Below, piece by piece: positions 62,020-64,000 of a stretch of DNA of 64,000 nt. The DNA comes from Planctomycetaceae bacterium (GTDB taxonomy: Bacteria > Planctomycetota > Planctomycetia > Pirellulales > Pirellulaceae): contig JAAEMV010000078.1 in NCBI GenBank assembly GCA_024225195.1, positions 1-64,000 of the forward strand. Direction: 5' to 3'. Positions within the stretch are counted from its first letter, which is position 1. The number at the start of each line of letters is the position of its first letter. The notes under the pieces are model-generated. The model saw only the letters and a program-made list of their open reading frames with translations, was not told the origin of the DNA and made no database searches. A program made the translations under genes and the position numbers.

Positions 62020-64000
62020 CTATTGCCGTGAGCCGGGGGTGATTTTTAATTCAATCCGCTTGCCGTTCCGGAGAACGGTGACGGATGTCTCTTCTCCGAT
62101 TTTTATGGCATCGATAATCGCGGTATAGTCGTAGATGTTTTCAATGCTTTTGCCAGCAAGTTCAACAATAATGTCGCCGCCTTTGATTCCTGCTTTATCT
62201 GCTGGGGCACCTTTGGTTACATCTGAAAGTTTGACTCCGACGACGTCCTCGCCATAGGCAGGGACACTTCCAAGATAGGCGCGAAGCCCACCTTTGGGAG
62301 CGTCTTGTGATGCCGAAGATTGTTCGATGTAGTCGGGGGCTTGGTCGGTGGTCGCAAGTGATCTGGTGATGAGTCCCATCAGGCGAGCAATTCTTGCAGC
62401 GTCGGGATAGTTAAGTTTTTCAGGTGTGTCGCGAGGCGTGTGGTAATCGGTATGCGATCCTGTGAAGGCGGACAGGATAGGAATGCCACCGCGATAAAAC
62501 GAACTGGCATCGGTGGGGAGGTCGGTTTCGTTACTGAGCGTAACGGGAAGTCCGACGACTGCATTCTTAGATTCGATGACCGAAGGCCAGAAACTACTGC
62601 TGCTGACACCTTGAAGAACAAGCTGATCGGTTAGGCGACCAACCATGTCCATGTTGAGAGCAGCAATAATTCCAGTGCTTGGCCGTGAAGCTCCCGCTTT
62701 GGGATCTTTGTTGTTGAGGGTGACTTTTTTGACTCCGAGACTTTTGACCATTTCGGAGAGTTCAGTAACGACTTTCGTCTTTGCTTCCGGGTGAGCCTCG
62801 ATTTGAATTTCAAAATCAGGATAGTTTTTGGCGATGAACTTTAAGGACTCACTGATTTCATCAGTTTTCGCGGCTTCTCCATTTAGCAAAATTTCACCAT
62901 TGGCATCCACTCCGAGCACGAAGTCATGGGAGGCATCCTGAGTAGCAGGAGTTTCGGTAGGTTGGAGCGATTTGACGTAATTGGCAGACCCATAAAGCCC
63001 GAGTTCTTCGCCGGACCAGCCAGCAAAAATTACGTCTCGTTTGAGTTTTAGTTTTCCAGCCCTTTGTTGGGAGACTAGGTACTCGGCAATTTCGAGCATT
63101 GCGGCGACACCCGAGGCATTGTCATCTGCGCCGAAGTGGATATTGTTTTGCTCGTCTTGTTTCGCAAGGCTGCTGCCAGATTTGCCAGCGCCGAGATGGT
63201 CAATGTGTGCTCCTACGATTACCGCGTCCTCGCTCGGAGTATCCCCGGCGAGGAGTCGGCCTACTACATTGCGTCCTTTGCCTGTGATTTTTTCGATATC
63301 GATCTCTGTTTTGAGCTTGCTGCCTTCGAGGTTGAAGCCCATTACCGGTGATCCGTCATCTAACCGGTTTTGGAGTTTTTGGATGTCTTTGCCAGCCGCT
63401 TCCAGGATTTTTTGCCCGACCTCATCAGTGACGCTGATCGCTGCAATGCTGGATCCGCTGGGGGAGAAATCATTTCGCAGAGGGACCAATTGCTCCCGAA
63501 CCTGTGAATTAGGACCGCTGACAACGATCACGCCCTTTGCGCCTTGCTGCCTCGCATGAAAAATCTTTTTGTGAAGTTCAGCGTGTGTTTTGAAAAATCG
63601 CCGCCGCTCAGGGGAGACATTTTCAGGTAGGAATCGGTAAACAAAAACCCACTTGTCCTTTACATCGAGATGGACGTAGGAGTCGTATTCTTCTTCTTCG
63701 CCTTGTTGCGGGGCGACGATCCCGTAGCCAGCAAAGACGATTTCAGTTGGATCGATCTGGAGATTGCCAGAAAACGAGAGCGGTCTCCAGTCTTGGTTGA
63801 CTTTGAGTGATTTGGTGTTCCCACCAACGGTGAGTTCCAGTTGGTTTTTGGGCCCCATTTCGACGCCATTAGGGAAGTCGAACTTTTGAAACCAAGTGCC
63901 ATTGTCACCGGCGGGTTTCAGTCCCAAGTGATCAAGATAGGCCGCGACGTACGCCGTTGCTTTCCGCTCGCCTGCTGAGCCAGTCATTCGGCCGCCCAGC
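62020..64000 (-). CDS. M28-family metallopeptidase with PA-like, inserted ExbD/TolR-like and PDZ domains (N-terminus likely outside window)
   Basis: VGAHIDHLGAG, GADDNASGVAAMLEIAEYL, GWSGEELGLYGSANY, MDMVGRL, HTDYHTPRDTPEKL; C-terminal PDZ GVKLSDVTKGAPADKAGIKGGDIIVELAGKSI. Confidence 0.92.
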   Translation of the reverse strand, partial: LGGRMTGSAGERKATAYVAAYLDHLGLKPAGDNGTWFQKFDFPNGVEMGPKNQLELTVGGNTKSLKVNQDWRPLSFSGNLQIDPTEIVFAGYGIVAPQQGEEEEYDSYVHLDVKDKWVFVYRFLPENVSPERRRFFKTHAELHKKIFHARQQGAKGVIVVSGPNSQVREQLVPLRNDFSPSGSSIAAISVTDEVGQKILEAAGKDIQKLQNRLDDGSPVMGFNLEGSKLKTEIDIEKITGKGRNVVGRLLAGDTPSEDAVIVGAHIDHLGAGKSGSSLAKQDEQNNIHFGADDNASGVAAMLEIAEYLVSQQRAGKLKLKRDVIFAGWSGEELGLYGSANYVKSLQPTETPATQDASHDFVLGVDANGEILLNGEAAKTDEISESLKFIAKNYPDFEIQIEAHPEAKTKVVTELSEMVKSLGVKKVTLNNKDPKAGASRPSTGIIAALNMDMVGRLTDQLVLQGVSSSSFWPSVIESKNAVVGLPVTLSNETDLPTDASSFYRGGIPILSAFTGSHTDYHTPRDTPEKLNYPDAARIARLMGLITRSLATTDQAPDYIEQSSASQDAPKGGLRAYLGSVPAYGEDVVGVKLSDVTKGAPADKAGIKGGDIIVELAGKSIENIYDYTAIIDAIKIGEETSVTVLRNGKRIELKITPGSRQ

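Follow-up and report, generated by a model that had tools for sequence, protein, structure and literature searches.

An ExbD/TolR-type periplasmic domain inserted in a secreted M28 peptidase of the planctomycete genus Mariniblastus

The host peptidase and its insert

The window, a 64,000-nucleotide stretch of contig JAAEMV010000078.1 from a marine planctomycete, carries at its end part of a gene for a secreted peptidase with an ExbD/TolR-like insert in its catalytic region. The whole gene (G000:C78:62020-65289, minus strand) encodes 1089 amino acids, and the portion in the window (62020..64000, minus strand) covers residues 431-1089 and the stop codon. Residues 1-430, beyond the window, comprise a signal peptide and a TolB-like PD40 propeller; these are followed toward the C terminus by a protease-associated (PA) domain, an M28 peptidase domain split in two by the insert, and a PDZ domain. 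The signal peptide was called by eye, with cleavage near VPA-QE and no lipobox. The propeller matched Pfam PD40 at 3.1e-39, and TolB structures were the best PDB matches (residues 222-374). The protein itself is not TolB, having scored 137 bits with TIGR02800 against a cut-off of 343, and the propeller is therefore termed TolB-like. PD40 propellers are frequent in secreted proteins and are no proof of Tol function.

The remaining domains are encoded on the minus strand of the window. The PA domain (63406..63708, residues 528-628; PF02225, 3.3e-5) interrupts the N-terminal half of the M28 region, an arrangement found in PA-type M28 aminopeptidases, of which PaAP and BSAP were fold matches of the full model. 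The first part of the peptidase (62938..63270, residues 674-784; PF04389, 9.8e-36) contains H695, D723, E761 and E762; the second (62350..62670, residues 874-980) supplies zinc ligands D881 and H950, with roles assigned from the family. A PDZ domain (62041..62280, residues 1004-1083; PF13180, 1e-9) ends the protein. Pfam thus confirms the PA, M28 and PDZ parts recognized in an earlier sequence-only reading of the window, which missed the propeller because the N-terminal part lies outside it. Known PA-containing M28 aminopeptidases, such as PaAP of P. aeruginosa (8AC7/8ACK), BSAP of B. subtilis (6HC6) and an Aneurinibacillus enzyme (2EK8), share the M28 core, PA domain and zinc-ligand pattern, whereas the N-terminal propeller, the C-terminal PDZ domain and the ExbD-type insert are additions in the host. 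Orthologues with the same propeller-M28-PDZ architecture occur in other planctomycetes and other phyla (e.g., L152, L157, L171 and L182) and are 50-60% identical over the shared parts, but their corresponding loop totals 32 to about 104 residues and holds no ExbD domain.

The insert (62671..62934, minus strand) spans residues 786-873. It opens with a conserved HDF and closes with a poorly predicted tail that runs from the end of the fold to residue 873. Within it, the ExbD/TolR periplasmic-type domain proper (62707..62922, minus strand; residues ~790-861) has the predicted order strand-strand-helix-strand-helix-strand, and is entered through a flexible linker (62926..62958, minus strand; residues 778-788) with pLDDT below 50. 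The peptide quoted in the sequence-only reading agrees letter for letter with the minus strand at 62934-62704. That reading had also remarked that two peptidase motifs are unusually far apart for M28, and comparison bears this out: EELGL and MDMVGRL are separated by 127 residues in the host versus 35 in paralogues of the same genome. In orthologues outside the genus the distance is mostly 32-104 residues, with 119 in one repeat-bearing case, and the extra sequence in this loop is of low complexity and many lengths.

The insert joins the helix after E761-E762 to the strand ending at D881 (predicted elements, helix 761-774 and strand 874-880); from knowledge of the M28 family, we take E761-E762 and D881 to be zinc-binding residues. 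H695, D723, E761, E762 and D881 are invariant in 41 orthologues, and H950 is present in at least 90%. Judged by this conservation, and with residue roles taken from the family, the zinc ligands and catalytic glutamate are intact. Since the helix leads away from the active site and the strand leads back, the loop from helix end to strand start should lie across the alpha/beta core from the active site, a placement that we infer from topology and with which the predicted elements agree. Given such a position, we propose that catalysis would be kept. A full-length model (pLDDT 83, pTM 0.53) shows a folded insert (blocks of ~78-89) behind the 778-788 hinge, the flexibility of which would leave its orientation on the peptidase free.

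Relationship to ExbD and TolR

Searched alone, the insert had ExbD (PF02472) as its best Pfam match at about 4e-5; with 12 upstream residues the match improved to 1e-5, or 26.0 bits versus a cut-off of 25.4. The whole host protein scored 21.5-22.2 bits with the same model, and values in other frames of reference ran up to 24.0. A single copy is therefore borderline, and a family-wide test is what counts. In an alignment of 20 orthologous inserts (A1), 19 matched Pfam ExbD, the best at 3.2e-8, whereas the next Pfam family reached at most eight, with E no better than 0.019. The profile comparison with ExbD/TolR proposed in the sequence-only reading was run against the PDB, where the six top chains were all ExbD, aligned over the full domain (best E 0.0057). 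Across 347 genomes, the insert profile recovered the inserts of the genus first and then mainly free-standing, ExbD-sized open reading frames, and reciprocal genome searches returned ExbDs. As a control, an HMM built from six membrane ExbDs of the same genome was applied to the inserts and to about 10,000 shuffles; 18 of 20 inserts (13-25 bits) exceeded the top shuffle (8.6 bits), and two (L093 and L104) were not separated from the shuffles. Structure prediction, likewise proposed earlier, gave a model from insert rows only (AlphaFold, pLDDT 76, pTM 0.59) with elements ordered as in ExbD. Its seven top Foldseek matches were ExbD/TolR (E 1.5e-4 to 1.6e-2, TM up to 0.82).

The modest single-sequence scores (about 24-26 bits) and the two inserts indistinct from shuffles are what might be expected if an unrelated small alpha/beta domain had come to resemble ExbD by chance or convergence. 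Against such an origin stand 19 of 20 members pointing to one family, the leading ranks of ExbD/TolR in both PDB and Foldseek searches, the shuffle control and the reciprocal return of ExbDs; we regard chance resemblance as largely refuted and highly improbable. Collectively, sequence profiles and an independent comparison of predicted folds show that the insert genuinely belongs to the ExbD/TolR periplasmic-domain superfamily, as the sequence-only reading had supposed.

Compared with the ExbD/TolR family (PF02472; E. coli ExbD 8P9R, 8VGC and 2PFU; TolR 5BY4 and 2JWK), the insert has the same fold, element order and hydrophobic core, but is housed in a secreted enzyme and lacks the transmembrane helix with its proton-carrying aspartate and the N-terminal swap strand. 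Hydrophobicity ahead of the insert scored 0.18-0.48, with no hydrophobic segment found there, versus more than 2.0 in the free ExbDs examined; in the free-standing ExbD-sized frames that we examined, such a segment precedes the domain. Columns of the 20 inserts were compared with 50 free planctomycete ExbDs and E. coli ExbD, the numbering of which is used here. Inserts keep the ExbD core, including G72, the hydrophobic positions, the YPD turn and G126. Conversely, R105 is kept in two of 20 inserts versus 44 of 50 free ExbDs and D107 in three of 20 versus 47 of 50, a comparison biased towards likeness because the free ExbDs were picked by similarity to the inserts. Y112 persists in at most one or two of the 20, and an aromatic residue or histidine at this position is mostly lost. 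R105, D107 and aromatic 112 form the surface, in the dimer region, that free ExbDs conserve most; their loss may have abolished ExbD-type dimerization and the groove that the dimer interface forms. Other positions have become fixed in the inserts (H788, F790, N803 and F826) or nearly so (D789, P824 and K821).

Pairs with dS of 0.8-1.05 gave insert dN/dS values of 0.05-0.14 (Nei-Gojobori), with dS estimates that are rough for a stretch of about 74 codons. Most catalytic stretches had values of 0.00-0.02, making the insert several times higher and the fastest of all parts, and its identity between distant species falls to 24-32%. By these rates the insert is under purifying selection, though loosely constrained. 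As both the transmembrane proton helix and the R105/D107/Y112 surface are missing, its sequence marks it as a detached, repurposed ExbD domain and not a motor part.

Distribution of the insert and of other non-motor ExbD domains

Among 241 genomes of the family, the ExbD insert was seen at the M28 site only in the window's genus, Mariniblastus by record names, and in a search of 392 genomes of the phylum the top-ranking matches from outside the genus do not include it. Distant matches in other genera of the family are almost all free-standing ExbD-sized frames. The host gene is present in 26 of 28 genus genomes. The ExbD insert occurs in 21 of the 28 species (21 of the 26 with an orthologue), namely the 20 in alignment A1 and G517; three other orthologues have a different, helix-rich insert and one has none (L103), with G514 outside these counts. 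On a host tree built without insert columns, by a quick method with SH-aLRT support only, the ExbD state is accounted for by a single gain and a single loss, and the lineage with the helical insert is sister. Flanking genes for an FAD oxidoreductase and an AI-2E transporter are retained through the genus; the host loci are therefore orthologous. The same frame and site in the genomes of 21 species and in independent records exclude an assembly error. Absence outside the genus likewise excludes the insert as a normal M28 feature, and the architecture search in planctomycetes upholds the earlier view that it is atypical for this family by confining it to one genus. A literature search by title and abstract, of partial coverage, for ExbD with M28, sulfatase or planctomycete yielded no report of such an architecture. 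The domain is a known one, and its setting is new.

The same M28 loop holds other kinds of sequence. In three sister species (L099, L100 and L102, of G505, G503 and G504) it contains a helix-rich stretch of ~110 residues with a PHD motif at its start, for which no known family was found (FapA, 0.14). In one planctomycete (L146) it carries about 11 HADPHAK-like, histidine-rich repeats, and loops of other orthologues also contain His-rich stretches that are possibly metal-binding.

ExbD-type domains also turned up in other proteins that are not membrane motors. In another family of the same order, an 876-residue protein (L217:339-2969, G670:C429) combines a sulfatase, an ExbD-like stretch and a GDSL hydrolase. 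A relative (L218, G693:C183) carries a diverged version of the domain, in both cases located between the sulfatase part and the sulfatase C-terminal part; relatives in G369 and G661 lack it. Profile comparison of this domain with the M28 inserts gave E 9.5e-8, although the model sequence itself was found with that profile. Like the host described here, the sulfatase-GDSL protein is a secreted hydrolase whose relatives have only a short loop at the position of the ExbD-type domain. It differs in that the enzyme is unrelated to M28 and that one of the two copies keeps the R-A-D motif. Two more proteins emerged from the search of the phylum. A secreted protein of 348 residues (L246, G132:C111:6268-7311) contains three ExbD-type stretches without a motor helix (Pfam 7.8e-20) and has divergent relatives in its own family, and a probable lipoprotein (L249:917-1927, G185:C14; LLPAC lipobox) ends in an ExbD-type domain (Pfam 5.3e-9). 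Long frames around planctomycete ExbD matches were also considered as further fusions. Nearly all 15 are ordinary membrane ExbDs with upstream frames open by chance, the two exceptions without a motor helix being L246 and L249.

The sulfatase case and the two non-membrane ExbD-domain proteins suggest a recurrent module. In a bolder and rather unlikely reading, ExbD/TolR domains cut loose from the proton motor constitute a recurrent, mobile module that docks proteins of the planctomycete envelope to peptidoglycan or to proton-driven transducers; its hosts, by the same speculative reckoning, would include the M28 peptidase in Mariniblastus, the sulfatase elsewhere in the order, the lipoprotein and the secreted tandem-repeat proteins.

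Possible roles of the insert

We are close to certain of the anatomy and origin of the insert. The fuller account, in which an ExbD domain was spliced once into the M28 loop and now acts as an accessory docking module, has about an even chance of being correct as a whole. The donor was probably an ExbD of Pirellulales, of the class with a YPDL motif. The domain, without its membrane helix, entered a single time, in an ancestor inside the genus Mariniblastus, the loop that runs from helix to strand between zinc ligands E762 and D881 of a secreted propeller-PA-M28-PDZ peptidase. There it cannot act as a motor stator and may serve to hold the peptidase at peptidoglycan or at an envelope partner protein. 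Precedent comes from trimmed forms of its relatives, which the insert resembles. Removal of the swapped strands at both termini, as in TolR(60-133), allows E. coli TolR to bind peptidoglycan (PMC4646322). ExbD contacts peptidoglycan glycan chains and, without residues 43-60, captures a TonB peptide (PMC10771500); the D-box peptide is captured as a strand added at residues 130-134 (PMC10907165). In the insert, the N-terminal swap strand is missing and the edge strand that corresponds to 130-133 (KVTL) is still present, and the domain is thus built like an always-open form that could take up a peptide as an extra beta strand. The peptide groove of ExbD is formed by the dimer. Because dimer-contact residues (104, 106 and 112) are partly lost, binding of the TonB type is not claimed. 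By analogy with trimmed TolR and ExbD, docking of the peptidase to peptidoglycan or a partner protein is our best guess, offered tentatively.

Nearly as likely is that the insert is a tolerated ornament, a well-folded, ExbD-derived spacer without a binding role that is retained in a permissive loop because it folds. Permissiveness is evident from the low-complexity stretches of many lengths, His-Ala repeats included, that fill this loop elsewhere, and within the genus from the helical domain of three species and the species with nothing there; this loss and replacement also count against docking. The rapid evolution of the insert and the loss of the conserved ExbD surface fit a spacer as well. 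Yet the domain has been retained over long branches in 21 of 26 orthologue-bearing genus genomes, is under purifying selection, and has invariant (H788, F790, N803 and F826) and nearly invariant (D789, P824 and K821) residues in excess of what a spacer should need, some of which may serve folding or packing against the host. The sequence-only reading had suggested that the insert could dock to TonB/Tol-type machinery or peptidoglycan and so couple an envelope protease to an energized complex. In the strong form of this idea, the insert would replace or join an ExbD/TolR protomer in a proton-driven complex and link the protease to it mechanically. Its homology to ExbD/TolR, the TolB-like propeller, and eight free-standing ExbD matches and two OmpA-type proteins in the genome (G000) are in keeping with such mechanical coupling. 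However, the insert has neither the proton helix nor most of the conserved dimer surface, no TonB C-terminal domain was found at E 0.01 in the genome (94% complete), and the PD40 propeller, being common in secreted proteins, is no proof of a Tol role. Nor were exbB, tolQ, tonB or pal found among the neighboring genes tested; the neighbors encode SelR, DUF1499, AI-2E transporter, FAD oxidoreductase/halogenase-like, DUF1559 and endo/exonuclease proteins. Live coupling is thereby weakened to an improbable reading.

The known role of ExbD/TolR domains is within proton-driven motors. If docking is correct, the presence of the periplasmic domain within secreted enzymes of two or more unrelated kinds would make it a usable binding module in itself. 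It would also offer a simple way into the debated question of whether, away from the motor, the domain by itself binds peptidoglycan or a peptide strand, and into how hydrolases are retained in the unusual envelope of planctomycetes. Even as a tolerated spacer, the insert would be a clean example of an enzyme loop that has taken up a large domain, with its gain, loss and replacement all visible in a single tree. The peptidase described here is one of several cases of non-motor ExbD domains, among which the sulfatase, tandem and lipoprotein proteins are the most interesting lead.
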